Assembly: GCA_029932675.1 (NCBI GenBank)
Contig: JAOZPP010000044.1
Location: 1-23,791 of the forward strand
DNA: 23,791 bases
Origin: a bacterium
GTDB lineage: Bacteria > SM23-81 > DAOVCL01
Direction: 5' to 3'
Each line of letters opens with the position of its first letter. Within the stretch, counting starts at the first letter, position 1. The notes beneath the pieces are model-generated. The model was not told the origin of the DNA. It did no database searches and saw only the letters and a list, made by a program, of their open reading frames with translations. This document shows, piece after piece, positions 7,740-21,585 of the stretch. Position numbers and translations under genes: made by a program.

Positions 7740-10700
7740 TTGGAAGGTATTAAACCAGGGAACATTATCAAGGGCTTCCACTGGCCAGAGCCAGTGGAAA
7801 TCAAACTCGTCGAGGATCTGGGTGATTATGTGCACATAGTTGGTGCGACCACCCACTCCAGAAACCATATTGACCAAATCATCCCTCGCCAAGAGCTCTC
7901 AAAGCTCTCCATAATGACCCGAGGATTCACCTTCACTGAAGAGCCGTGGAAGGTGTTCCTTGCCCTGGAGACAACCCGCTATCGTTTTGCCTCTCTGTAT
8001 GACCCCCTCTTGGCGATGAATACTTCTAAGGTGGACCCTCTCCCTCATCAGATCGAGGGCGTATATGGTTATGTGCTCAAGCTCCCCAGAATTCGCTTTC
8101 TAATTGCCGATGACCCTGGGGCTGGAAAGACGATTATGGCGGGACTGATCATCAAAGAGTTAAAGCTCCGCAATCTGGCAAAAAGGATCCTCATTGTAGC
8201 CCCTGGACATCTCAAAGACCAGTGGCGAAGGGAATTGGTGGAGAGATTCGAAGAAAAGTTTGTTGTAATTGACAGGGGATTCTTAGATGCCTTGTATGGG
8301 GAGAATGTGTGGGAACGGGAAAACCAGATTATCACTTCAATCGATTTCGCCAAGAGGGAAGACGTTTTACCTTCGCTCTCTGCCACGAACTTTGATCTCA
8401 TCATCGTCGATGAAGCCCACAAGATGAGCGCCTACCAATATGGAGACAAAACCCAAAAGACAAGCCGTTATAAGTTGGGGGAAACGATCTCCCGAAAGAC
8501 CGAACACCTCCTATTCCTTACGGCAACTCCCCATAAGGGTGACCCCGACAACTTCCGACTCTTCCTGGACCTCTTGGAACCCGGTTTCTTTGCCACAAAC
8601 GAGATGCTTCAAGAATCGATCCGGAGCAAAGACAACCCCCTATTCATCAGGCGGGTCAAGGAAGATCTGAGGGACTTTGAGGGTATACCCCTATTTTTGC
8701 CCAGACATGTAAAAACCATTGCCTTTAACTTGGGAACCAATTCACCCAGGGAAAAAGAGCTTTACAATGAGTTATCCAAATATGTCAACCTACAGTATAA
8801 CAAGGCCCTCTCAAAGGACAGGAGACGAAATGTTGCCTTTGCCTTAGTCATCCTCCAGCGCCGCTTAGCATCCAGCACTTATGCATTACTCAGGTCATTG
8901 GAAAGAAGGAGGAGGCGGTTGGAGGACCTGCTTAAAGGAGCTGAGCAAAAGGGTAAGACAAGGGAAGGGACTTTTGACTTCGATGCGGTAGAGGATTTAA
9001 ACGAAGAGGAGAGATGGAGGGAGGAGGAGATCTGGGAAACCCTCAGCGTAGCGGAAAACAAAGAGGAACTGAAGAAGGAGATAAGGACCATTGATAGGCT
9101 CATTGGCTCTGCCAAGGAGATCATTCGCGGAGAGAAAGAGATAAAATTAAAGGAACTTAAGGAGGCCTTGAACGAGATAACGCAGAAGTACCCAGAGGAA
9201 AGAGACAAAAAAGTTCTGATCTTCACCGAATCGAGGGATACTTTGGAGTATCTGGAGAGGAAGATCAGGGATTGGGGATATACTACCAATACGATCCACG
9301 GCGGAATGAGATTAGAAGACAGGATAAGGGCGGAAAGCATCTTCAAAAATGAGACCCAAATCTTAGTGGCCACAGAGGCAGCAGGAGAGGGTATCAATCT
9401 CCAGTTCTGCCATTTGATGATCAATTATGACATCCCGTGGAATCCCAATCGGCTTGAGCAGAGAATGGGAAGAATCCATCGCTATGGTCAACAGAAAGAA
9501 GTCTATATCTTTAACCTTGTAGCTGAGGACACTCGCGAGGGGAGAGTCCTGAACAGATTGTTCCAAAAACTGGAGGAGATAAAAGAGGCAATGGGAACTG
9601 ATAAGGTCTTTGATGTTTTGAGCGAAGTTTTATATAACAGAAGCCTCTCCCAGCTCCTGATGGAAGCTGCGGCCAGCGCCCGAAACATCGAGGAGATCCT
9701 TCAAGAGATCGACATCCAGGTTAATGAGGATTATATCACCAGAGTCAAGGAAAATCTGGGGGAGAGCCTTGCCACCCGCTACATCGATTACACGCGCATA
9801 AGGGAGATGGCCCAACAAGCACGGGAATATAGACTCATCCCAGAGTATACAGAAAGTTTCTTCAGAAAAGCCCTTACCAAAGCAGGGGGGAAGTTCAAGG
9901 AGCGTAAAGCCGGGTTCTTAGCCATAGATTCGGTTCCATTTGATTTACGGAAAATTGCCGAACAGGATAACTTCAAGAAATCTTACGGCCAATTGTTGAA
10001 GAGGTATCCAAAGGCCACCTTCGATAAGGAAATTGCCCTCAGGAACCCTGACGCTGAATTTATCTCCTTTGGCCACCCTCTTTTTGAAGCCGTGATGGGC
10101 TGGATAGAGGGCAACTTCTTAGATTCACCTCAAAACGGGGCTAACTTTGTCGATCCTGACGGAAAGCTCGATGGTTATATCCTCTTCTACGAGGGTGAAG
10201 TGCGGGATGGCACTGGCAAGGTTGCCGGAAAGAGGCTCTTTAGCTTTTATACAGATGAACGGGGAGTAAAACCGGTCTCCCCGGCCATTATCTGGGATCT
10301 GGCCGAAGCAAAACCAGAGGAGTCATCCCCTCTGTCCACCATAAGGGAATCCACAGATGTGGATTTACTCAAACAAAGGACAGCCGATAGCGCCATTTCA
10401 AAACTTGAGGAATACAGAAAAGAGCTTGTGGGAGAGCGGAAGCGGCAGGCAAAGATCAAACAGAAGTATGGAGTTAAATCTTTGGAGCACTTGATAATAA
10501 GACTTGATGGTGAGTTGATCTCACTCTATTCTCGCAAGGAACAGGGGGAAAATGTAGACCTGGCCATCAGGAACAAGGAAACAAGGAAAAAACAGTATGA
10601 AAGGGCACTCCATGATTTGAAGGAGGAGATAGAAAAGGAAGGAAGCCTTACAATGAGTATGCCCCGTTTTCTCGGCATCATCAGGGTAAGACCGAAAGCT

Positions 10701-11105
10701 ACCGCTGAAAAAACAGTCGAGGCTGATGAGGAGATAGAGCGTATCGGCATGCAGGTAGCAATGGAATATGAGGTAAAACAGGGAAGAGAACCGGAAGATG
10801 TATCTTCTGAAAATTTAGGGTTTGATATCCGCTCAAGGGATGAGAAGGGCAATGTTCGCTATATTGAGGTTAAAACAAGGGCCGAAAGGGCACCGGTGGC
10901 TCTAACCCCCAATGAGTGGTTTAAGGCAAAGAGGTTTAGAGACTGCTATTTTCTCTATGCGGTAATGAACGCTACCAGGACACCACAACTCTACATCATC
11001 CAAAATCCAGCGGAGAATTTAGAGCCAGAGGAAAAGGTCGAAGTAGTGAGGTATGTCGTGTCGTTTAAGAACCTGACCAGCAAGGGTATGTTGACAGAAC
11101 AGTGA
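7740..11105 (+). CDS. SNF2-type helicase with DUF3883-like C-terminus
   Basis: A 1121-residue superfamily 2 helicase/translocase. The ATP-binding lobe has ADDPGAGKT (Walker A, Lys130), VDEAH (224-227, motif II) and LTATPHKGD (motif III). The helicase-C lobe has LIFTESRDTLEYL, HGGMRLEDR, ATEAAGEGINLQ and QRMGRIHRYGQ (574-584, motif VI). Between the lobes lies a charged, coiled-coil-prone insert (about 375-480). The C-terminus (about 990-1121) has GFDIRS (1027-1032) and YIEVKTR with Glu1043 and Lys1045, as in DUF3883, a domain of PD-(D/E)XK-like appearance. The start is TTG 7740, five residues before the PG motif typical of such N-termini; the ribosome binding site is weak. It is the first gene of the defence-type cassette and would translocate on invading DNA. 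The DISARM protein DrmD is a related possibility. Confidence 0.88.
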   Translation: MEGIKPGNIIKGFHWPEPVEIKLVEDLGDYVHIVGATTHSRNHIDQIIPRQELSKLSIMTRGFTFTEEPWKVFLALETTRYRFASLYDPLLAMNTSKVDPLPHQIEGVYGYVLKLPRIRFLIADDPGAGKTIMAGLIIKELKLRNLAKRILIVAPGHLKDQWRRELVERFEEKFVVIDRGFLDALYGENVWERENQIITSIDFAKREDVLPSLSATNFDLIIVDEAHKMSAYQYGDKTQKTSRYKLGETISRKTEHLLFLTATPHKGDPDNFRLFLDLLEPGFFATNEMLQESIRSKDNPLFIRRVKEDLRDFEGIPLFLPRHVKTIAFNLGTNSPREKELYNELSKYVNLQYNKALSKDRRRNVAFALVILQRRLASSTYALLRSLERRRRRLEDLLKGAEQKGKTREGTFDFDAVEDLNEEERWREEEIWETLSVAENKEELKKEIRTIDRLIGSAKEIIRGEKEIKLKELKEALNEITQKYPEERDKKVLIFTESRDTLEYLERKIRDWGYTTNTIHGGMRLEDRIRAESIFKNETQILVATEAAGEGINLQFCHLMINYDIPWNPNRLEQRMGRIHRYGQQKEVYIFNLVAEDTREGRVLNRLFQKLEEIKEAMGTDKVFDVLSEVLYNRSLSQLLMEAAASARNIEEILQEIDIQVNEDYITRVKENLGESLATRYIDYTRIREMAQQAREYRLIPEYTESFFRKALTKAGGKFKERKAGFLAIDSVPFDLRKIAEQDNFKKSYGQLLKRYPKATFDKEIALRNPDAEFISFGHPLFEAVMGWIEGNFLDSPQNGANFVDPDGKLDGYILFYEGEVRDGTGKVAGKRLFSFYTDERGVKPVSPAIIWDLAEAKPEESSPLSTIRESTDVDLLKQRTADSAISKLEEYRKELVGERKRQAKIKQKYGVKSLEHLIIRLDGELISLYSRKEQGENVDLAIRNKETRKKQYERALHDLKEEIEKEGSLTMSMPRFLGIIRVRPKATAEKTVEADEEIERIGMQVAMEYEVKQGREPEDVSSENLGFDIRSRDEKGNVRYIEVKTRAERAPVALTPNEWFKAKRFRDCYFLYAVMNATRTPQLYIIQNPAENLEPEEKVEVVRYVVSFKNLTSKGMLTEQ
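7776..7799 (+). repeat. Perfect 10-bp hairpin inside the helicase 5' coding region
   Basis: TTCCACTGGC and GCCAGTGGAA flank a CAGA loop, 34 bases downstream of the helicase TTG start. The segment is coding (residues around HWPEPVE), so the symmetry is not needed by the protein. It could slow initiation or be a protein binding site. The symmetry is seen; any role is inferred. Confidence 0.5.
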
Positions 11106-11121
11106 AGGCTATGGGGGAACT

Positions 11122-11295
11122 ATGAGATCAGTGGAAACAAAATTGAGGCCACTTCCCCAGAGTTTACAGAAGGTATTATGTGTTTGTCTTGTAGGGACAG
11201 ACATTTATGTCTGTCCGCTTCCTCGGACAGGGCTAAAGCCTTGTCCCTACCCAGTAAAACTCCCAACTACCGAAATGACTCATACTATTTTATGA
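11122..11295 (+). pseudogene. Possible small gene remnant interrupted by a palindromic repeat
   Basis: A 57-codon frame opens with ATG 11122, seventeen bases after the helicase stop, with GGGGGAA just before it. The first 23 codons (about MRSVETKLRPLPQSLQKVL) look like the N-terminus of a small DUF2281-like antitoxin-type protein, but the match is weak. From 11191 the frame runs through a 60-bp palindromic element, giving a sequence unlike a protein. My reading is a remnant broken by the repeat; it may also be chance. The rest of the 333-base gap up to 11438 shows nothing else. Confidence 0.25.
11191..11250. repeat. 60-bp cruciform palindromic element
   Basis: The element has terminal inverted repeats of 9 bp (11191-11199 and 11242-11250) and two internal hairpins: a perfect 10-bp stem with a TT loop (11195-11216), and a 9-bp stem with a TAAA loop and one G-T pair (11225-11246). 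It encodes nothing. A related half-copy occurs at 23363-23389. It resembles REP/MITE-type intergenic repeats common in environmental bacteria. It lies between the helicase and the ATPase gene. Confidence 0.8.
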
Positions 11296-11438
11296 ATAAT
11301 CCGGGGAATAGGCGGTTTAAGAAAATACAGAAACCAATACACCTCGCTTGAATTCCAGAAGATGGCTTCAAAATGGAGGGATTGATGTATCTGGTTGATT
11401 GTCATTACCTCAAATTCAAAACATTGGAGTGAAAACAG

Positions 11439-12692
11439 ATGATAAATAGAGTTCAAACTTTATACTACAAGGGACTGAAATCCATTGATATCGATCTGAA
11501 ACCCTTTGTTATCTTAGTTGGCCCAAATGCCAGTGGCAAAAGCAGCTTCTTAGATATCTTCACCATCCTCCATGATGTCCTTACGGAAAGTCCTGTATAT
11601 GCGATTGAACGGAGGAGCTCTCACTTCAAAGAGTTGGTATGGAATCAAACAGGGGATAGCTTTGAGATCGCCTTAGAGTTTCTAATCCCAGAAGATAAAA
11701 ACAAGAATTTTCACCTCGCCCGTTATGAAATATCCTTAGCTGAGGATAAAAACGAAGGGATCGTAGTCAAAAATGAAAACCTTTTCCTAATAAAAGAGGG
11801 GGCAGAAACAAGAAAGGAACAAAGAGGAGGCCCTCAACAGAGGACACTTTTCCCGCTGGAGCCTAAACCGCCCGAGTACATTGTTGCTCCTCGTAAAAGA
11901 ACACCACCAGGTTGGCGTAAGATCATCTCTAAAAGCCCGCAGGGCAACGACTATTTCCGCTCAGAAACCACTGATTGGAATATAACTTATCGGTTCGGCC
12001 CCACGAAAGCCTCTCTTGCTCGAATCCCCGAAGACCAAATCCGTTTTCCCATCGCCCTTTGGGTAAAAAAGGTTTTAACGGAAGGAGTTAATTTCCTGCA
12101 ATTGAACAGCGTGGCGATGCGTTGGCCCTGCAGGCCTGATACACCCATTACCTTCCAGATGGATGGTTCCAACCTGCCCAAAGTCATTAAGCATTTACAG
12201 GAGAACCATAGGGATCATTTTAAAAGATGGGTTAAGCATATAAGGTCTGCCCTCCCCGAAATTGAAGATATCGGAATAAAGGAGAGAGAGGAAGATCGCT
12301 ATCTCTATGTTTATGCAAAGCATAAGGAAAATCTCAGAATACCCTCTTGGCTATTGTCTGATGGCACCTTGCGGTTGCTCGCCCAAACCTTAATAGCATA
12401 TCTACCTGTAAGGGATCAGATTTATATCATAGAGGAACCTGAAAATGGATTACATCCACTGGCCATTGAGAGCGTGTTTCAATCCCTTTCGTCTGTGTAT
12501 CAAAATCAAATTCTATTGGCAACCCATTCCCCCGCCATCCTTAGGTTAGCAGAACCCAAGGATATCCTCTGTTTCTCCAGGACCGATTCAGGAGCAGTTG
12601 ATATCGTGCAAGGTGAAAACCATCCCAAATTGAAGAACTGGAGAAAAGAGGTTGACTTAGCCACCCTGCATGCAGCAGGTGTGTTGCAATGA
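11439..12692 (+). CDS. AAA_21/OLD-like ABC-class ATPase
   Basis: A 417-residue soluble ATPase of the SMC/OLD/RecF type. It starts with a core β-strand and ILVGPNASGKSS (Walker A, 26-36). The ABC signature-like LLSDGTLRLLAQ lies at about residues 305-316, Walker B is IYIIEEPENGLHP, and the H-loop is LLATHSPAIL. The insert between Walker A and the signature (about 45-300) is variable and unrecognised. It lacks a C-terminal TOPRIM domain, unlike full OLD nucleases and GajA, but the next gene supplies a TOPRIM-like protein and overlaps by four bases (ATGA). RloA and PARIS AriA are comparable. It probably senses infection or gates the partner. The start ATG has a weak site (GGAGTGAAAAC). Confidence 0.85.
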   Translation: MINRVQTLYYKGLKSIDIDLKPFVILVGPNASGKSSFLDIFTILHDVLTESPVYAIERRSSHFKELVWNQTGDSFEIALEFLIPEDKNKNFHLARYEISLAEDKNEGIVVKNENLFLIKEGAETRKEQRGGPQQRTLFPLEPKPPEYIVAPRKRTPPGWRKIISKSPQGNDYFRSETTDWNITYRFGPTKASLARIPEDQIRFPIALWVKKVLTEGVNFLQLNSVAMRWPCRPDTPITFQMDGSNLPKVIKHLQENHRDHFKRWVKHIRSALPEIEDIGIKEREEDRYLYVYAKHKENLRIPSWLLSDGTLRLLAQTLIAYLPVRDQIYIIEEPENGLHPLAIESVFQSLSSVYQNQILLATHSPAILRLAEPKDILCFSRTDSGAVDIVQGENHPKLKNWRKEVDLATLHAAGVLQ

Positions 12693-13306
12693 CAAAAGAC
12701 CTCGTTGTTCTTGTTCCAGATAAAGATACAAAATTTGCATTGGAGGGAATTCTCGGGCGCCACTATGCCCTTCACATTAAAGGTATTGAATACGACATCT
12801 TCGTTCACCCCTTGCACGACCCAGGCGTTTACAAAAAAGCGGTTGACTTCTTGCGCCCCTATTTAAGCTTCTACCGATATGCTCTAGTCTTCTTAGATAG
12901 AGAAGGCAGCGGACAGGAGAGAAAATCGGCGTCTCAGATTAGCGAAGATTTAAAGAACCAGTTGGAAAGAAACGGATGGCCTAATAGGGCAGAGGTGATC
13001 GTATTCGATCCAGAACTTGAGATCTGGGCCTGGGTTGATTCAGCTAAAATGGCACAGATAGTGGGATGGACTGACTATCGGCAATTGAAAAATTATCTTG
13101 TTCAGCACAGACTCTGGCAGAGGGATACTCCCAAACCGCAAAAGCCTAAAGAGGCTTTTGAGTTGGCGTTAAGGTCTAAGGGAATTCCACGCTCATCATC
13201 TATCTACAAGGAAATTGCTGATCAAGTGAGTTTTAACGGTTGCGTTGAAGCATCGTTTGATAAGTTTAGAACCGTTTTGAAGGGATGGTTTAGCAAAGAG
13301 AACTAA
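12689..13306 (+). CDS. Small TOPRIM-like partner protein (DUF4276/RloB-like)
   Basis: A 205-residue protein translationally coupled to the ATPase before it. The first strand DLVVLVPDKDTKFALEG (4-20) carries acidic residues Asp11, Asp13 and Glu19. A second strand ends ALVFLDREGSG with Asp70-x-Glu72, in the place of the TOPRIM DxD pair. Then VIVFDPELEIWAWVDS resembles the P-x-x-E-x-W-L segment typical of DUF4276 and RloB families. I therefore read it as a metal-binding TOPRIM-fold nuclease or nuclease relative, working with the ATPase. The catalytic pattern is not canonical, so it could instead be a regulator. Family assignment comes from motif memory and is moderate. Confidence 0.6.
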   Translation: MTKDLVVLVPDKDTKFALEGILGRHYALHIKGIEYDIFVHPLHDPGVYKKAVDFLRPYLSFYRYALVFLDREGSGQERKSASQISEDLKNQLERNGWPNRAEVIVFDPELEIWAWVDSAKMAQIVGWTDYRQLKNYLVQHRLWQRDTPKPQKPKEAFELALRSKGIPRSSSIYKEIADQVSFNGCVEASFDKFRTVLKGWFSKEN

Positions 13307-13525
13307 AATGAGGATCCATAACAGGAATCTCGACGAAGGCGATATTTTCGTTCGATATATCCGTTTTTTGTAAGATAGCAAACCATTTCTGGCCTGTAGC
13401 AGGTGCTGGATATATCCCTTGAGCTTAGAAGAAGAAAGAGAATGGATTCCCGCCTGCGCGGGAATGGCAAGTAAACGAATGAGGCCGCGTTCTATATCGA
13501 ACTCAGGTTGTTAGGAGGCTGTAAG
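13307..13525 (+). other. Gap before the methylase with repeats and a 21-codon frame
   Basis: No full gene is seen. ATG 13308 opens only 21 codons. The motif GATATATCC occurs twice in direct orientation (13354-13362 and 13409-13417), the second time as the perfect palindrome GGATATATCC, 55 bases apart. This could be an operator pair. A separate palindrome lies at 13446-13465. AGGAGG at 13513-13518 is the ribosome binding site of the methylase. Confidence 0.4.
13446..13465. repeat. Palindromic repeat ATTCCCGC-CTGC-GCGGGAAT
   Basis: A perfect 8-bp stem with a CTGC loop, flanked by GG and GGC. This exact kind of sequence is a well-known dispersed intergenic repeat in many proteobacterial genomes (from memory). 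It lies 60 bases before the methylase start and has no T tract. Confidence 0.7.
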
Positions 13526-16321
13526 ATGAAGCGCTTTATTGAAGAATCCTTCCCAGTGAAGGAAGTGAGCATTGAATCGGCCAGGGAGAAGAACATCCGC
13601 CACGGGCACATCTCCACCCTGCATATCTGGTGGGCCAGACGACCTCTTGCCTCCTCTCGAGCTACCAACTATGCAGCCCTCATCCCCGCAATCTCCCCAA
13701 AGGGCAACCCGGATGAGTGGCAAAGGAAAAGGGATTTCATTGTCAACCTCTCCAAGTGGGAAAACTCCTTAAATCAAGGGATGATCAGGCGAGCAAGGGA
13801 GGATATCCTTAAAGCCAATAATGGAAAACCCCCCAAGGTGCTTGATCCCTTTGGTGGAGGTGGCGCAATTCCATTGGAAGCCCTGAGGCTGGGCTGTGAG
13901 ACCTATTCCAGTGATTACAACCCGGTTGCTGTCCTCATACAGAAATGCACACTTGAGTATCCTCAGAAATACGGCAAACCTGGAGAGATCGAAAGGGAGA
14001 TTGAATCCTTCGGAGTCAGGCATAAGGAAAAGGTGAAGATGGAGAACAGGTTACTGGAGGATGTGAAGCAATGGGGCAATTGGGTTTTAGAAGAAGCGAA
14101 AAAGGAGATTGGAAGGTTTTACCCTGAGGAAAAAGATGGCTCAATCCCTGTGGGCTACATCTGGGCCAGAACCATCCCCTGTCAAAATCCTTCCTGCGGT
14201 GCTGAAATTCCTCTGATGCGGCAATTCTGGCTGGCAAAGAAGAGAAGGGCCAATAGCCAACGGGGGAACAGGGACAGGTTAATAGCATTAAGACCTTGTG
14301 TTCATAAAGAAGAACGAAAAATCGGTTTCGTTGTTGTAGAGAAAATCAAAGGCGAATGGGAAGTTGTGGATGGAAGACCTCTATTGGCTAATGGCTATTC
14401 TCTATTGCCTGACTTCAACCCCTCCAATGGCACCATCTCCAGGGCAGTAGCCACTTGTCCCGTCTGCGGCGCTGTCGTTGACCCTAAGACTACGAGGAGG
14501 CTTTTTCAGGAAGGAAAGGCCGGGCAGCGGATGGTGGCGGTGGTTTTGCATAAGCCCGGCACGAGCGGCAAGAGATATAGGATTGCTACCAAAAGTGATA
14601 TGGAAATTTTTAGAGAGGCAGAGGAATATCTAAAAGAGAAACGGGAAAAGCTGATGATGGAATGGGGTATGGACCCGGTGCCGGATGAAAATATTGACCC
14701 CAATTCTGTAAAACCTCGAACTATGTGGCTTTATGGAATGAAGAAATGGGGCGATATATTCAATTCGAGGCAGAAACTGGCGATGATTACCTTTGTGGAG
14801 AGGGTGAGACAGGTACATGAAAAGATGGTGGGGGAAGGCTATGAGAGAGAGTATGCGAAGGCGGTGGTGAGTTATTTGGCTCTCGCGATAGATCGTCAAG
14901 TGGATTACAATTCGGTGCTTTGTGTTTGGGCTGTAGCAGGAGAATTCATAGCACATACTTTTGGAAGACAAGCGCTGCCGATGATTTGGGATCACTTTGA
15001 GTTATCTCCTTGGAGTGAAGCCACTGGTGACTGGAATTCGGCTTTGGAGTGGATTGCCCGTGTCACTGACCACTGCTCACACATAGCTTTTTCCTCTGTA
15101 ACGGTTACTCAATCCTCCGCCACATCTCTCTCCTATCCCGACAACTACTTCGATGCTGTATTTACCGACCCGCCTTATTACGACAATGTTAATTATGCAG
15201 AGTTATCCGATTTTTTCTATGTATGGTTGAAAAGAACTGTTGGGGATTTATATCCTGAGTTATTTCCTACCCCACTTGTCCCTAAATCTCAAGAGGCAGT
15301 TGCAAATCCTCCAAGACATGGTGGACAGGATAGGGCGAAAGATTTCTTTGAATCTAGGATCAAAAAATCATTTAAGGAAATTCACCGCGTTTTGAAACCG
15401 AACGGCATAGCTACCATTGTTTATGCTCACAAATCTACCAAGGGATGGGAAACGCTCATTAACTCCTTGCTTGACTCAGGGCTAATTATGACTGCGGCAT
15501 GGCCAATTCACACCGAAATGTCTAGTAAACTGAATGCTCAAGGAACAGCCTCACTTATGTCCTCTATCTACATCGTTGCCCGCAAGATGGAGCGGCAGCC
15601 CACAGGATTTTACAATGAGGTGAAGGAAGAGTTAAAACGGCACTTGAACGCAAAACTCGAACGTCTCTGGGCAGAGGGCATCGGTGGGGCGGACTTCTTC
15701 ATCTCTGCCATTGGCTCGGCCATTGAGGTCTTTGGCAAATACAAGAAGGTGATGGACTATGAGGGCCACATAGTCCGTGCAGATCGTTTGCTCGCAGATG
15801 TGCGAAAGATAGCCACGGATTATGCCGTCCATCAGATATTACGAAACGGGTTTGAGGGAGAGATCTCCGATTTGACCCGTTTTTACGTGCTCTATCGCTG
15901 GAACTACGGTGGGGCTAAGGTGCAGTTTGATGAGGCACGCAAATTAGCTCAGAGTTGCAGCATTGACCTATCCAACGAGTGGAACCGTCCTGGATTTATC
16001 AAGAAGGAGAAAGAGTTTATCAGGGTTTTAGGGCCACAGGATAGAAAACTTGCAGACCTTAAAGGTTCATCACAACTAATAGATGTCCTCCACGCCGTTC
16101 TCTTGCTCTGGGAGAAAGGGAGACGAAACGACATTGTAAGCTTGCTTCAGGAATCTGGTTACGGTAGGGGCGAAGCATTTTATCGGGTCGCCCAGGCAGT
16201 ATCCGAGACCCTGTCCATTGAAGACAAGGAGAAAAAGCTCTTAGACGGATTCTTGGCGGGCAGGGAACGACTGAAAGAAGAAGTGAAAAAGGCTAGGGCT
16301 GTGCAGGAGAGATTGCTTTAA
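13526..16321 (+). CDS. DUF1156-type adenine DNA methyltransferase with zinc ribbon
   Basis: A 931-residue protein of the COG1743 type. The N-terminal DUF1156 region has FIEESFPVKEVSIESAREK and HISTLHIWWARRPLASSRA. The SAM-binding motif I is DPFGGGGAIPLEAL (from Asp107). A zinc ribbon is split as C219-x4-C224 and C311-x2-C314. The catalytic motif IV is TDPPYYDNVNY (Asp548-Tyr551), characteristic of N6-adenine methylation. The order motif I, insert, DPPY is alpha-like, so the 430-residue insert probably contains the target recognition part. ATG 13526 is chosen because AGGAGG lies 7 bases upstream; a TTG at 13508 lies before that site. In the cassette it should mark self DNA. Stand-alone methylation is also possible. 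Confidence 0.92.
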   Translation: MKRFIEESFPVKEVSIESAREKNIRHGHISTLHIWWARRPLASSRATNYAALIPAISPKGNPDEWQRKRDFIVNLSKWENSLNQGMIRRAREDILKANNGKPPKVLDPFGGGGAIPLEALRLGCETYSSDYNPVAVLIQKCTLEYPQKYGKPGEIEREIESFGVRHKEKVKMENRLLEDVKQWGNWVLEEAKKEIGRFYPEEKDGSIPVGYIWARTIPCQNPSCGAEIPLMRQFWLAKKRRANSQRGNRDRLIALRPCVHKEERKIGFVVVEKIKGEWEVVDGRPLLANGYSLLPDFNPSNGTISRAVATCPVCGAVVDPKTTRRLFQEGKAGQRMVAVVLHKPGTSGKRYRIATKSDMEIFREAEEYLKEKREKLMMEWGMDPVPDENIDPNSVKPRTMWLYGMKKWGDIFNSRQKLAMITFVERVRQVHEKMVGEGYEREYAKAVVSYLALAIDRQVDYNSVLCVWAVAGEFIAHTFGRQALPMIWDHFELSPWSEATGDWNSALEWIARVTDHCSHIAFSSVTVTQSSATSLSYPDNYFDAVFTDPPYYDNVNYAELSDFFYVWLKRTVGDLYPELFPTPLVPKSQEAVANPPRHGGQDRAKDFFESRIKKSFKEIHRVLKPNGIATIVYAHKSTKGWETLINSLLDSGLIMTAAWPIHTEMSSKLNAQGTASLMSSIYIVARKMERQPTGFYNEVKEELKRHLNAKLERLWAEGIGGADFFISAIGSAIEVFGKYKKVMDYEGHIVRADRLLADVRKIATDYAVHQILRNGFEGEISDLTRFYVLYRWNYGGAKVQFDEARKLAQSCSIDLSNEWNRPGFIKKEKEFIRVLGPQDRKLADLKGSSQLIDVLHAVLLLWEKGRRNDIVSLLQESGYGRGEAFYRVAQAVSETLSIEDKEKKLLDGFLAGRERLKEEVKKARAVQERLL

Positions 16322-16350
16322 CCCCTGTTAATCACGTGAATTATTCACAA

Positions 16351-16445
16351 ACATCTGCACAGCAACTTTTAACTACCGATAGCTGAGCGGTCAGATCCCC
16401 TGACCTGATCGTGGCAGAACAGGGACCCTGCCACCTCACCTTTGT
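16351..16445 (+). repeat. Two-hairpin repeat, copy A, upstream of the DUF499 gene
   Basis: This about 95-bp element is imperfectly repeated at 19115-19207, in the same orientation. Hairpin 1 is GGTCAG/CTGACC with loop ATCCC (16389-16405). Hairpin 2 is GTGGCAG/CTGCCAC (16411-16434). It fills most of the 185-base gap between the methylase and the DUF499 gene. The rest of the gap holds the ribosome binding site AGGGAGAT. Confidence 0.75.
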
Positions 16446-16506
16446 TGGAACCTGCAGGAGGTTCACAGAATATTGAAAAGAAGGCAAATGAAGGGAGATA
16501 GGTAAT

Positions 16507-19047
16507 ATGAAAGCATTCCACACGATTGCGATTCCCCATCGTGACATCTTAGAAGGCCGCCTCACTTTCGACACATTTGCGGCAGACCTCTGGGAAGTCA
16601 GCCAGCAGCGAGGGCCGGACGAATATAAGGACGCGGGGACCTTCTTCAGGAAGACCTATCTAACCCAGGGGTTGGAAAACTTGCTTGGAATTGTGGAAAA
16701 ACGTTTGCGCGGGGAAGGCGGCGATCCGGTGATTCAGATTCAAACACCCTTTGGAGGTGGAAAAACGCACGCCCTAATCGCTTTGTATCATAAGGCCGCC
16801 GAATGGGGGATCAAAAAGGTTGTCATAGATGGCTCTGCACTGGGAAAAGAAGCAACTCTCTGGGGATTATTAGAGCAACAATTAACCGGAGAAATCTTAG
16901 CTTGTTCCGGGCAGACAGCCCCTGGCAAGGAAGTAATAAGGGAGTTGCTATACAAAGATCAGCCTGTCCTTATCCTAATGGACGAGCTTTTGGAGTATGT
17001 GACTAAAGCCGCAAGCTTGAAGGTGGGGAAGAGCACTTTGGCTGCCCAGGCCATCGCCTTTATGTTGGAACTTACTAAGACATCGGGGACCTTAGAAAAG
17101 GTCTGTTTAGTGGTGACTTTACCCTCCAGTATTATTGAACATTTTGATGAAAGCGCAGAAAGGCTTTATCAACAATTACAAAAGATAATGGGGAGAGTAG
17201 AAAAAATCTACACCCCGGTTCAGGATAATGAGATCGCAAAGGTCATCAGAAGAAGACTCTTTAGCGATCTCAATGAAAGTGAAACAAGAAGGGTTGTTAC
17301 AGAATTTGTGGAATACGCAGACAGGGAAGGGATACTCCCTGCAGGGCAGCAACCAAGCGAATACAGGGATAGGTTCCTTGATTCATATCCGTTTATGCCT
17401 GAAGTAATAGATGTGCTCTATCACCGCTGGGGGAGTTTCCCCACATTCCAGAGAACCCGGGGTGTCCTCAGGCTCCTCTCTTTAGTAGTGCGTTCGCTAA
17501 TGGGAACAAACAAACCCTATATCAGTCTGGCGGACTTTGACCTGGCCGATCAGGAGATCCGCCAGGAGCTTTTAAAACACATCGGGGTAGAATACAACAG
17601 CGTTTTAGCGGCTGATATCACTGATGTAGAGGCTGGATCCAAAAAAGTGGACGCATCATTGGGCAGGTCTTACCAGGGGTTGAACCTGGGTACGCGCACG
17701 GCAACAACCATCTTCCTCTACTCCTTCTCCGGTGGACAAGAACGAGGCACAACATTAGGGGAGATAAAACGCTCTGCCACTACCATTGAAAACCCAGCCA
17801 GTGTTGTCGCAGAGGCCGCTGAACAATTGAAAGGCAAACTTTTCTACCAGCAAAACATCGGTGAGAAATACTTCTTTAGCAACCAGCCCAATCTGAATCG
17901 AATCCTTTTGACCAATATGGAGAACATCAAGAAAAGCGAGCTTGTGGAGATGGAAGAAGGGCTTTTAAAAGGGGGCATCAAAGGTGGTAAATTAAAGGTT
18001 TTTGTCTGGGAGGAAAACGGTTCCAATATCCCTGATACCGAGGAACTCAAACTCGTCATCCTGAAGAGAGAAAACCCTAAGCTAATGGACAATATCCTAA
18101 AAAACAAGGGGCAGACACCGCGGGTCTACCGGAATACCCTGTTCTTCCTCTATCCCCTGGAATCTGAAAGGCCGGGGTTTGTCAACATTTTGAAGCGGAG
18201 AATCGCTTATGAGCACATCGAAAAGGATGAAACCCTCAACCTTTCCGATGAACAGCGGAAGGAGATCAAGAGAGAACTAAAGAAGGCTGAGGGGGATTTG
18301 AAAGAGTCCATTCGCAAACTTTATCGGACGATTGCCATCCCGGACAGAGAAGGATTTAGGAATGCCGATTTAGGAGTTCCCACCTATGGAGAGGAGATGG
18401 GACTTGATCAGGAAGTCTATGAAAACCTAAGGTCTGCTGGAGAAATACTGGAAAACATCGCCCCCATAGTCCTCAAAGAAAAGTTCCTCTCTAACCGAGA
18501 ATATGTCTCCACTGAGCAACTGTATCAGTCATCCTTCAAGACACCTGGGGAGACAAGGCCGCTGAACATAGAGGTCCTCAAGCGGGGAATAGCTGAAGGT
18601 GTGCGGATGGGGCTCTTCGGAGTGGGCGACCTGGAAGCTGAGAACCCAGTCTGTCGTTATTTTAAAGAACAACCTTCTGTTGCTTTATCGGGGAATGAAA
18701 TTCTCATTAGTGAGAAGGTATGCTGTGCGCAAAGGGAGAAAGAGCTAAAAGTGGAAGCCTACCCCCAACCCACCGGAACCAGTATCCCCAAGGCACATGA
18801 GGGAGGTGAAGAAAAGAGAGGACCCCTCCCTCCTGGGGAAAAGACAAGGGAGAGCATCAAATTGAGGTTTCGGGTGCCAAAGGGCAAAGTGGCCAATATT
18901 ATGGGGGTGATGAACCTATTGCAGAGCAAGTTTGAAACCCTGGAGATAGGACTTATGGCCAAGGATGGAGCGATCTCTGAACAAGATTATGAAGATAAGA
19001 TCAAAGAAACCTTCAGACAATTGGGGATTGAATGGAGCGAAGAATAG
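16507..19047 (+). CDS. DUF499-type P-loop ATPase
   Basis: An 846-residue protein of the COG1483/DUF499 type, a large AAA+-like ATPase repeatedly found beside DUF1156 methylases. Visible features are IPHRDILEGRLTFDTFAADLWEV at the N-terminus (split by me: HRDILEG then FAADLW), Walker A QTPFGGGKTHAL (Lys86), Walker B LILMDELLEYV (Asp159-Glu160), and a conserved WGSFPTFQRTRGVLRLL region at about 310-326. A Lys/Glu-rich coiled-coil stretch lies around 570-605. The C-terminal part is unrecognised. The ATG follows AGGGAGATAGGTAAT. It is the last gene of the cassette and has repeat copies on both sides. Its likely role is an ATP-driven DNA-loading or sensing subunit; this is inferred. Confidence 0.9.
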   Translation: MKAFHTIAIPHRDILEGRLTFDTFAADLWEVSQQRGPDEYKDAGTFFRKTYLTQGLENLLGIVEKRLRGEGGDPVIQIQTPFGGGKTHALIALYHKAAEWGIKKVVIDGSALGKEATLWGLLEQQLTGEILACSGQTAPGKEVIRELLYKDQPVLILMDELLEYVTKAASLKVGKSTLAAQAIAFMLELTKTSGTLEKVCLVVTLPSSIIEHFDESAERLYQQLQKIMGRVEKIYTPVQDNEIAKVIRRRLFSDLNESETRRVVTEFVEYADREGILPAGQQPSEYRDRFLDSYPFMPEVIDVLYHRWGSFPTFQRTRGVLRLLSLVVRSLMGTNKPYISLADFDLADQEIRQELLKHIGVEYNSVLAADITDVEAGSKKVDASLGRSYQGLNLGTRTATTIFLYSFSGGQERGTTLGEIKRSATTIENPASVVAEAAEQLKGKLFYQQNIGEKYFFSNQPNLNRILLTNMENIKKSELVEMEEGLLKGGIKGGKLKVFVWEENGSNIPDTEELKLVILKRENPKLMDNILKNKGQTPRVYRNTLFFLYPLESERPGFVNILKRRIAYEHIEKDETLNLSDEQRKEIKRELKKAEGDLKESIRKLYRTIAIPDREGFRNADLGVPTYGEEMGLDQEVYENLRSAGEILENIAPIVLKEKFLSNREYVSTEQLYQSSFKTPGETRPLNIEVLKRGIAEGVRMGLFGVGDLEAENPVCRYFKEQPSVALSGNEILISEKVCCAQREKELKVEAYPQPTGTSIPKAHEGGEEKRGPLPPGEKTRESIKLRFRVPKGKVANIMGVMNLLQSKFETLEIGLMAKDGAISEQDYEDKIKETFRQLGIEWSEE

Positions 19048-19114: not shown

Positions 19115-19207
19115 AACCTGCACGTAGCTCCAAACTACAAATAGCCAAGTGGTTAGGTCTCCTGATCTGACTGAGGCAGAACAGGCTTCTGCCCCCTCAC
19201 TTTTGAA
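19115..19207 (+). repeat. Two-hairpin repeat, copy B, downstream of the DUF499 gene
   Basis: It aligns with copy A (16351-16445) at roughly two-thirds to three-quarters identity by eye. Shared blocks include AACTAC, ATAGC, GGCAGAACAGG, CTGCC and CCTCAC. Hairpin 1 (GGTTAG/CTGATC, 19151-19167) keeps full pairing using two G-U pairs, and hairpin 2 is GGCAGA/TCTGCC (19175-19193). Retained pairing despite base changes points to selection on structure, or to a repeat family that spreads as a hairpin. Confidence 0.75.
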
Positions 19208-19347: not shown

Positions 19348-21579
19348 TTACATTTGCACCACAAGGATCAAGAAGGCACCGAAGTTTATCAGGGCCAAGG
19401 CCCAACAGGTGCCCGGTATGCCCAGGATAGGCAGAAGGAAGGCTGAGGCCAGCAGTGCTCCAAAGCAAGAACCCACCAAATCGAGGCCATAGACCAAGCC
19501 AGCAGACCTGGAGACCTTGCCTCCTGATCCTAAATAGAGCCTATTGGACAGGGGAAACTGAAACCCACCCAGGAGGCCCCCTCCGAAGATGAGCAAGGGG
19601 AAGAGGAAATTAGCCCCCCAGGAGGGGCTGCTTCCAGTGGAGAAAAGGGTAAAGGTGGCTAACAGAAGAAGGGGATAAATGGCCACCAAGAGCTGGATTC
19701 CGGTGAAGCAGAGAAAGGGGAGACTAATTCTCCTCAACCAATGGGTAGACAATCCGCTTCCTATAGCCAGACCTATCATATAAGCGGTTATCAAGAGTCC
19801 CAACTTGTAGTAGAGGTAACCGAAGAATACCTGAAAGGCAAGGATGATCATCACCTCAAAGGCAATCTCGGCGAAGCCCATACTCATCACCGCCAAAAGG
19901 ATAGCCTTCCCCCTCAGTTTCCTCCTCCTGCTCCAGAAGAAGAGGAAAAGAATCATCACCGGTAAGGCAATCCAGCCAAGGTTCATCTTGGAGAAAAGGA
20001 GAAAGACCTTCTTGAAGCTTTGGCTAAAGTAGGTTGACCAAAGCACCATATCGTTGTAATAGGAGATGGGGTAAAAGTCCCTGTTCAACTTGGGGGACCC
20101 CTTAAGGTTGGAGAGCAGATATTCTATCCTCTCCTGGGAGAGCTTGAAGGGAAGATAATACTCCCGCACATACCTCGCCTCTATACCCCTCCCTTTCAGC
20201 CTCTCAACTAAGACCTCCGGCCTGTAGGTAAGCACCCCTGCGGATCTGCAGCCAATAAACCTGTTCAGATCCCCGGGGATGACCACCACATCGGGGAATA
20301 CCTTTTTCAACGAGGCGAAGATACTGCTCAGATAACGGGAGAGCTCCGGACCTATATAGTTCTCCGAGGAGGTCACGGTAAGGGAGATCATCCCCCGGGG
20401 ATTGAGGATTCTCTTTGCCTCCGCGAAGAACTCAATGGTGTAAAAACGATTGATCTGGGCCGTATATGGATCAGGGAGGTTGACGATGACCACATCGAAC
20501 TTCTCCATGGATTTCTTCACCCAGAGCCGGCCATCGGTATTAATCAGCTCGACCCGGGGATCGGAGAGGTTTTTTACCTCCTCGGAGGGGAGATTTTCCC
20601 TGCCCATTTGGATAAGCTTGGGATCAAGCTCAATGTAAACCACCCTCTCAATAGCCTTATCCTTGAGGATCTGTTCCAAGCTCCCCCCTACCCCCCCACC
20701 GATAAGAAGCACCTTCCGGGGAGAAGGATGCTCCAAAAGGGCAAAGAGCACTGATTCCTCGGCGGTTAAAACATCAGGATAAGTGAAGACCAGAAGCCCA
20801 TTCTCAAATAAGCTAATCTGATCCCCTCTCTTGGTCATGGTCAAATTACCATAGACCGTATCAGTTGACTCGATGAGCTGAAAACCCTTCCATTGCAACC
20901 TTCTGCTCAGGTAGCTCAGTTTTTGTGCCTGGGGAAGGAGGAAAAGGACAAGGAGGAAGAGAACCAAGGAACCGATACGGTAGCCCAATCTCCTTCTCTC
21001 TGTATAAAGCAGATAAGAGGAAAAGAGGAGGAGAAAAGCCAGGCAGAAGGCCATCTGCAGGGGAGTAAGCAAATGGATGAAGATATAGTTGAAGAGAAGC
21101 CCACCAACCGATGAGCCAATTGCCTCTAAAAGGTAGACCTTACCCAAAAGAGCCGCCCTCTCCTCTCCTCTCCTCTGGGCCATCTCACTGCCCAGGGGAA
21201 AGAGTCCACCAGAGATAAGGCAGAAGGGGGCCAAGGTGAGGAAGGAGATGAGAAAAATGGGAAGAAAACCCAAGATCTCCCCGGGGGAGGCTCCTAAAAA
21301 AAGCTTGCTCCCCCTTACCCCTACTATGGAAATGGGCAAGAGAAGGGAGAGTATTATCTGGAATGTAGCAAACTTTGTCTCCCTCTCCCCCCATCGCCGG
21401 GCGAACTTCCCCAAGAGGAGGGCCCCAAAGGATGTCCAGATGAGCCAGTTGGCCAACACCACACCAGTGGAGAGCTCGTTCCCATAGAAGACTACCAGGA
21501 GCTCCCTCATCAGGATGATCTGACCCAAGATGGCGGCGAAGCCGATGAGGAAAAGGGCAAAAATAATCCTTTTCTTCAT
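19348..21579 (-). CDS. Membrane protein with spermidine-synthase-like domain
   Basis: A 743-residue fusion. The first 220 residues hold about six or seven hydrophobic segments. A soluble Rossmann methyltransferase-like domain (about 235-490) follows, with LLIGGGVGGSLEQIL (about 292-302), YIELDPKLI, INTDGRLW and VIVNLPDPYTAQINRFYT, as in spermidine synthases. The C-terminal 230 residues are again about seven membrane segments. The product would transfer aminopropyl or related groups from decarboxylated SAM at the membrane, but the substrate is unknown; the D-P-Y-T segment differs from the usual D-S-S-D-P of true SpeE. ATG 21579 is preferred (AGGA 7 bases upstream); a TTG at 21585 is too close to that site. 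It is monocistronic and converges on the DUF499 gene. Confidence 0.85.
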   Translation of the reverse strand: MKKRIIFALFLIGFAAILGQIILMRELLVVFYGNELSTGVVLANWLIWTSFGALLLGKFARRWGERETKFATFQIILSLLLPISIVGVRGSKLFLGASPGEILGFLPIFLISFLTLAPFCLISGGLFPLGSEMAQRRGEERAALLGKVYLLEAIGSSVGGLLFNYIFIHLLTPLQMAFCLAFLLLFSSYLLYTERRRLGYRIGSLVLFLLVLFLLPQAQKLSYLSRRLQWKGFQLIESTDTVYGNLTMTKRGDQISLFENGLLVFTYPDVLTAEESVLFALLEHPSPRKVLLIGGGVGGSLEQILKDKAIERVVYIELDPKLIQMGRENLPSEEVKNLSDPRVELINTDGRLWVKKSMEKFDVVIVNLPDPYTAQINRFYTIEFFAEAKRILNPRGMISLTVTSSENYIGPELSRYLSSIFASLKKVFPDVVVIPGDLNRFIGCRSAGVLTYRPEVLVERLKGRGIEARYVREYYLPFKLSQERIEYLLSNLKGSPKLNRDFYPISYYNDMVLWSTYFSQSFKKVFLLFSKMNLGWIALPVMILFLFFWSRRRKLRGKAILLAVMSMGFAEIAFEVMIILAFQVFFGYLYYKLGLLITAYMIGLAIGSGLSTHWLRRISLPFLCFTGIQLLVAIYPLLLLATFTLFSTGSSPSWGANFLFPLLIFGGGLLGGFQFPLSNRLYLGSGGKVSRSAGLVYGLDLVGSCFGALLASAFLLPILGIPGTCWALALINFGAFLILVVQM

Positions 21580-21585
21580 GGTCAA

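Follow-up and report, generated by a model that had tools for sequence, protein, structure and literature searches.

A MAD3-MAD4 pair embedded in an Hma-type defence locus of a bacterium of the SM23-81 lineage

Introduction

The Hma system, represented in PADLOC (Payne et al. 2021, PMC8565338), is also named the Type-1 DUF499-centred BREX-related system (PMC12839542). A restriction-modification-like model has been published for the Type-1 core, and the active nuclease at the C-terminus of the helicase was described as the primary effector (PMC12839542). OLD/TOPRIM backup effectors of BREX-related/Hma systems have been described as well (PMC12839542). The ‘Hma-embedded candidates’ stem from Payne et al. 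2024 (bioRxiv 10.1101/2024.01.29.577857) and are considered here as relayed by PMC12988326, PMC12255303 and the PADLOC models. PARIS couples an OLD-type ATPase, the sensor of a phage anti-restriction protein, to a TOPRIM nuclease, AriB, which it activates to cut tRNA (PMC12839542, PMC12409363).

Here, we analyse a stretch of 23,791 nucleotides, hereafter the window, located at positions 1-23,791 of contig JAOZPP010000044.1 of assembly GCA_029932675.1. We consider it fairly probable that the locus combines a restriction-modification-like Hma core with an embedded, independently captured MAD3-MAD4 pair that would act as a backup module in the manner of PARIS.

Results

Organization of the locus

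A sequence-only reading of the window had described five large genes at 7740-19047, all on the same strand and located between tsaE and a synthase gene. All five ORFs were indeed found at these positions on the + strand (Table 1), but the gene for the TOPRIM-like protein is small. The placement was equally borne out. The cluster is preceded by a housekeeping run (a mtnA-like gene, rplM, rpsI, rpsB, tsf, pyrH, frr, uppS, cdsA and tsaE), and the spermine-synthase-domain gene found downstream is on the - strand. As for the proposed families, the Snf2 helicase with its NOV_C tail, the AAA_21 ATPase, the DUF1156 methylase and the DUF499 ATPase all exceed the Pfam gathering scores.

Table 1. Features of the five-gene cluster and its flanks (window coordinates)
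Feature	Position	Strand	Evidence
tsaE, upstream of hmaA	7198-7659		PF02367 4e-40
HmaA, Snf2/SF2 helicase, 1121 aa, TTG start	7740..11105	+	PADLOC HmaA 6.6e-213; helicase motifs
NOV_C domain of HmaA (residues 999-1087), predicted PD-(D/E)XK nuclease	10734..11000	+	Pfam NOV_C 3e-24; motif; predicted fold
Palindromic MITE/REP-like dispersed repeat, HmaA-MAD3 spacer	11191..11216	+	33 genome copies
MAD3-type OLD-family ABC ATPase, 417 aa	11439..12692	+	NCBIfam MAD3 474 bits; PADLOC HEC-01A 5e-45; motifs
MAD4-type TOPRIM-like partner, 205 aa	12689..13306	+	NCBIfam MAD4 212 bits; structure model
HmaB, DUF1156 amino-methyltransferase with DPPY motif	13508..16321, likely start ATG 13526	+	PADLOC HmaB 2.8e-135
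HmaC, DUF499 AAA+ ATPase, 846 aa	16507..19047	+	PADLOC HmaC 4.7e-117; DUF499 7.6e-39
Spermine/spermidine-synthase-domain protein, downstream of hmaC	19348-21585	-	

The end of the MAD3 gene overlaps the start of MAD4 by 4 nt. The remaining gaps of the cluster are unusually long, with 333 bp between HmaA and MAD3, 201 bp between MAD4 and HmaB and 185 bp between HmaB and HmaC. The dispersed repeat in the first of these gaps was found throughout the genome with up to 3 mismatches, several copies being followed by a second arm, and the reversed-pattern control yielded 0 copies. A 53-bp repeat is present at 16371-16423, in the HmaB-HmaC gap, and again at 19133-19185, after HmaC, the two copies being 77% identical. 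Both kinds of repeats look like later invasions of intergenic DNA. The CCCGCCTGCGCGGG palindrome before HmaB is a single copy in the genome. Scans for promoters and terminators gave no excess relative to shuffled sequences. Given the spacers around the pair and the dispersed repeat, co-transcription of the locus is unproven, which we weighed against our preferred explanation. Rfam and tRNA scans returned no matches, and so gave no sign of a retron RNA next to the OLD-type ATPase or of a tRNA that could have served as integration site.

The Hma core

The PADLOC models for HmaA, HmaB and HmaC match three of the proteins with E-values of 7e-213, 3e-135 and 5e-117, and their genes form an operon-like cluster on one strand, which confirms the assignment to an Hma-type system. 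HmaA harbours the helicase motifs DDPGAGKT (at 124), DEAH (224), LTATP (260) and QRMGRIHR (574). Its C-terminal domain belongs to the Pfam family NOV_C, which we take to be the former DUF3883. The tail contains the signature GFDI...YIEVK, and the E, D and ExK columns of the PD-(D/E)XK motif are invariant in 14 HmaA tails. The predicted fold follows the order helix-strand-strand-strand-helix-strand, as expected for PD-(D/E)XK enzymes, and the predicted core aligns with Hjc Holliday-junction resolvases, SPARDA nuclease subunits and I-Ssp6803I, with Z scores of 9-11. By motif and predicted fold, the C-terminal domain of HmaA is thus a PD-(D/E)XK nuclease. The sequence-only reading, which saw no classic restriction enzyme in the locus, had missed this predicted nuclease fused to the helicase.

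HmaB matches Pfam DUF1156 (7.8e-23) and contains the motifs DPPY (at 554) and DPFGGGG (113). The ATG at 13526, which lies behind an AGGAGG-like ribosome-binding site, is a likelier start than the TTG at 13508. Sequence searches found no PDB relative of HmaB or HmaC. We also considered a Type-2 BREX-related system, defined by a helicase with an N-terminal HKD nuclease and by a DUF3780 gene, and rejected it, as none of the five proteins has a Pfam match to HKD or DUF3780.

The MAD3-MAD4 pair

The two proteins encoded between helicase and methylase pass the NCBIfam equivalog cut-offs for MAD3 (474 vs 420 bits) and MAD4 (212 vs 160 bits). MAD3 has all four motifs of an OLD-type ABC ATPase, namely the Walker A motif GPNASGKS, the signature LSDGT, the Walker B motif EEPENGLHP and the H-loop THS. 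It matches PADLOC AriA at 7e-32 and HEC-01A at 5e-45 with 152 bits, compared with scores of 482-618 for the HEC-01A proteins of three other Hma loci (L106, L116 and L135). As for MAD4, it gave no match to AriB and a marginal one (0.0034) to HEC-01B. The profile of the L135 HEC-01B protein aligns with MAD4 over 187 columns (E 1e-4, probability 58%).

MAD4 has no Pfam match, and the proposal that it is TOPRIM-like is upheld by its NCBIfam score and by an AlphaFold model (pLDDT 94) that resembles OLD TOPRIM domains. With VIA-align, the model matches these domains with Z scores of 8.8-9.8 over 134-178 aligned residues. The best structural matches (Z 8.8-10.4) are mostly OLD nuclease entries, the top one being a Pyrococcus protein of unknown function, and no PARIS chain is present among the matches listed in this fold search. 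Foldseek gave no match at E <= 0.001, and the sequence search against the PDB returned only a chance ribosomal match. A Z near 10 is moderate, and we regard the TOPRIM-like nature of MAD4, as predicted from the model, as well supported but not proven.

Nine MAD4 proteins all share the residues D70, E109, E111 and K149. At the acidic position of the first TOPRIM motif, where its relatives have Glu, the window protein has Pro-Asp, and this non-canonical motif implies that MAD4 may not be an active nuclease. The HEC-01B partners in other Hma loci hold Glu at this position, in ‘VEG’ in L106 and L116 and ‘VED’ in L135. The second motif is not strictly acidic throughout the relatives either, as one of them (L020) has Ser. 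MAD4 might then have a TOPRIM fold without activity and serve MAD3 as a regulator or adaptor, the module acting via the ATPase. Both motif changes speak for this possibility; however, the four invariant residues and the match of the predicted fold to catalytic OLD TOPRIM domains argue against it, and we consider it unlikely.

Cargo rather than core

We surveyed 386 broadly sampled genomes, and detected MAD4 in 9 of them, HmaB in 49 (E <= 1e-40) and HmaC in 50 (E <= 1e-60). The closest comparison is offered by nine readable loci with HmaA and HmaB on one contig and HmaA proteins 50-60% identical to that of the window. Helicase and methylase genes abut in six of the nine (L089, L090, L092, L095, L096 and L097), with gaps of -31 to 56 bp and no ORF of at least 100 aa at the junction. 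The other three hold different small payloads: HEPN-nucleotidyltransferase pairs in L091 and L094, and a 150-aa ORF matching a RecG-C-terminal-type ATP-binding family in L088. The suggestion that two extra genes have been inserted in the Hma core is therefore sound, as the close relatives mostly lack the pair. The MAD3-MAD4 pair is cargo and not part of the Hma core.

Filled junctions are common farther afield. Among 35 other loci of the same gene order, some of which share a genome, 26 have an ORF of at least 100 aa between helicase and methylase, and seven of these filled junctions include an OLD-type ATPase. The profile used to detect the latter was partly built from L102, L106, L115, L116 and L135; the junction ATPases of L102, L106, L116 and L117 were placed independently by PADLOC, and those of L119, L130 and L134 by the profile and motifs alone. 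HEC-01 pairs of an ATPase and a TOPRIM-like protein lie between helicase and methylase in two loci, L106 and L116, and two more, L115 and L135, carry them between HmaB and HmaC. The sequence-only reading had proposed looking for recurrence of the ATPase/TOPRIM pair at this position in unrelated genomes; such pairs do recur there, in L106 and L116, but they belong to the related, different HEC-01 type. Further payloads of Hma loci are PDC-S01, HEC-04, HEC-08 and PDC-M38. In L106 (5442-10872), the junction holds a stack composed of a Schlafen/AlbA-type protein, an HD-domain protein, a DarG-like protein and the HEC-01 pair.

An obligate five-gene variant, in which MAD3 and MAD4 would be subunits of the Hma complex, for instance as an alternative effector or sensor, would fit the clustering of all five genes on one strand and the recurrence of ATPase pairs at that position. 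Against it stand the closest Hma relatives, most of which lack such a pair, and the predicted nuclease that the core already possesses. In most genomes in which it was detected, moreover, the family of the pair occurs on its own next to housekeeping genes, and the window MAD3 lies apart from the other Hma-embedded ATPases in the tree described below. We regard this variant as quite improbable.

Origin of the pair

We found no MAD3-MAD4 pair inside an Hma locus other than that of the window. Elsewhere, the pair is mostly stand-alone and away from Hma (L006, L007, L008, L018, L019, L020 and L025), and the identified neighbours in L006, L008, L018 and L025 are purine-biosynthesis, DUF4835 and Mur-ligase genes. 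A further copy comes from a plasmid of Piscinibacter, where the MADS-like locus L027 contains an N6-methylase of its own together with a protein kinase and other large genes. The window MAD3 shares 56-71% identity with three stand-alone copies and only 31% with the L027 protein. In the MAD3 tree, it groups with the three stand-alone copies with 99/99 support, apart from five HEC-type Hma ATPases and the long-branched L102 protein; we rely on this local grouping alone, as the deeper forks are open and long branches meet there. Since the window MAD3 clusters with stand-alone copies and not with the ATPases of other Hma loci, the pair was probably captured independently. We also count towards independent capture its lower third-codon GC content, 0.46 compared with 0.52-0.56 for the hma genes.

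MAD3 and MAD4 are defined by the methylation-associated defence system, MADS, and a locus derived from MADS as a remnant or hybrid would be in keeping with the NCBIfam scores of both proteins. This reading is highly implausible, given that the window holds no other MADS gene and no kinase, that its methylase is HmaB, and that the nearest relatives of its MAD3 are the stand-alone copies rather than the L027 protein with its distinct gene set.

A single-sequence MAD3 scan of the genome contigs retrieved only three close relatives. No relatives of MAD3 or HmaB were found in the viral contigs scanned, and no MAD4 in phage records. In G001, the one same-genus genome in which we looked for an empty site, the tsaE contig ends inside tsaE, and no MAD4, HmaB or HmaC match was obtained; of one copy of the spermine-synthase-domain gene, only fragments are left in this genome (L163, 1560-2481). 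Two loci (L022 and L023) contain broken MAD3-MAD4 copies, with internal stops in MAD4 in G294 and MAD3 split over frames in G365, which suggests decay of the stand-alone pair. On a Geoalkalibacter plasmid (L026, 12001-15980), MAD4 is missing behind a MAD3-like ATPase, and its place is taken by an Eco57I-type methylase and a NERD-domain nuclease, which may form an alternative set of partners.

Discussion

Proposed mechanism

From the gene identities, the conserved catalytic motifs, the two predicted folds, and the cargo nature and separate origin of the pair, we infer the biochemical steps, the trigger and the substrates of an Hma core with an embedded backup module. HmaB would methylate the host's own DNA at N6-adenine, and HmaC, a DUF499 ATPase like BrxC, would assemble a scanning complex. 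HmaA might translocate on unmodified phage DNA, which its C-terminal PD-(D/E)XK nuclease would cut. MAD3, as an OLD-type ABC ATPase, would restrain the TOPRIM-like MAD4 until it senses infection or an anti-restriction activity, thereby releasing or activating its partner. As a second line of defence, MAD4 could then cleave nucleic acid, perhaps tRNA like AriB in PARIS, and thereby halt the production of phage. It is tempting to speculate that a backup effector fires when a phage disables the methylation-based core, which would account for the recurrence of such pairs in these operons. PARIS offers the nearest mechanism for the pair, and the altered first motif of MAD4 is a real reason for doubt.

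More tentatively, MAD3-MAD4 may be a portable immune module able to work alone, which would have joined methylation-based systems, namely MADS and this Hma locus, more than once. It would guard against anti-restriction with an altered-site TOPRIM-like enzyme, perhaps acting on a new substrate. The locus ties together two catalogues that name one type of module differently, as mad3-mad4 in MADS and as HEC-01 among the Hma-embedded candidates, and the module in its MAD3-MAD4 form is shown to stand alone as well. It also provides a clean case in which to ask whether an embedded module works together with its host system or just shares its location.

Comparison with known systems

The locus shares with Hma, or Type-1 BREX-related, systems the one-strand arrangement of a helicase, a DUF1156 N6-methylase and a DUF499 ATPase, and a helicase with a predicted C-terminal PD-(D/E)XK nuclease. 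It differs from them by the two additional genes between helicase and methylase and by its DUF499 ATPase, which is short and in which no HEPN fusion was detected. With HEC-01, the embedded pair has in common its position inside an Hma operon, the two-gene plan of an ATPase and a TOPRIM-like protein, and the ATPase superfamily; however, the window MAD3 represents another lineage, local alignments to the HEC-01A proteins detected here giving about 23-41% identity. With MADS, it shares two proteins above the NCBIfam cut-offs, but the rest of MADS is absent from the window, where no other mad gene was found above cut-off, and the neighbours of the pair are hmaA and hmaB. Like PARIS (AriA-AriB) and OLD nucleases, it associates an ABC ATPase with a TOPRIM-like protein, here on separate genes, and the MAD4 model resembles OLD TOPRIM domains; unlike in PARIS, MAD4 lacks an AriB family match and its first TOPRIM motif is altered.

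The variant put forward in the sequence-only reading is not a new type, as Hma-embedded candidates and OLD/TOPRIM backup modules have already been published (PMC12988326, PMC12839542). The locus is an ordinary-looking Hma operon with an embedded, putative second defence module, a kind of nesting that has been described before, and its modest addition to what is known is that the embedded pair belongs to the MAD3-MAD4 lineage.
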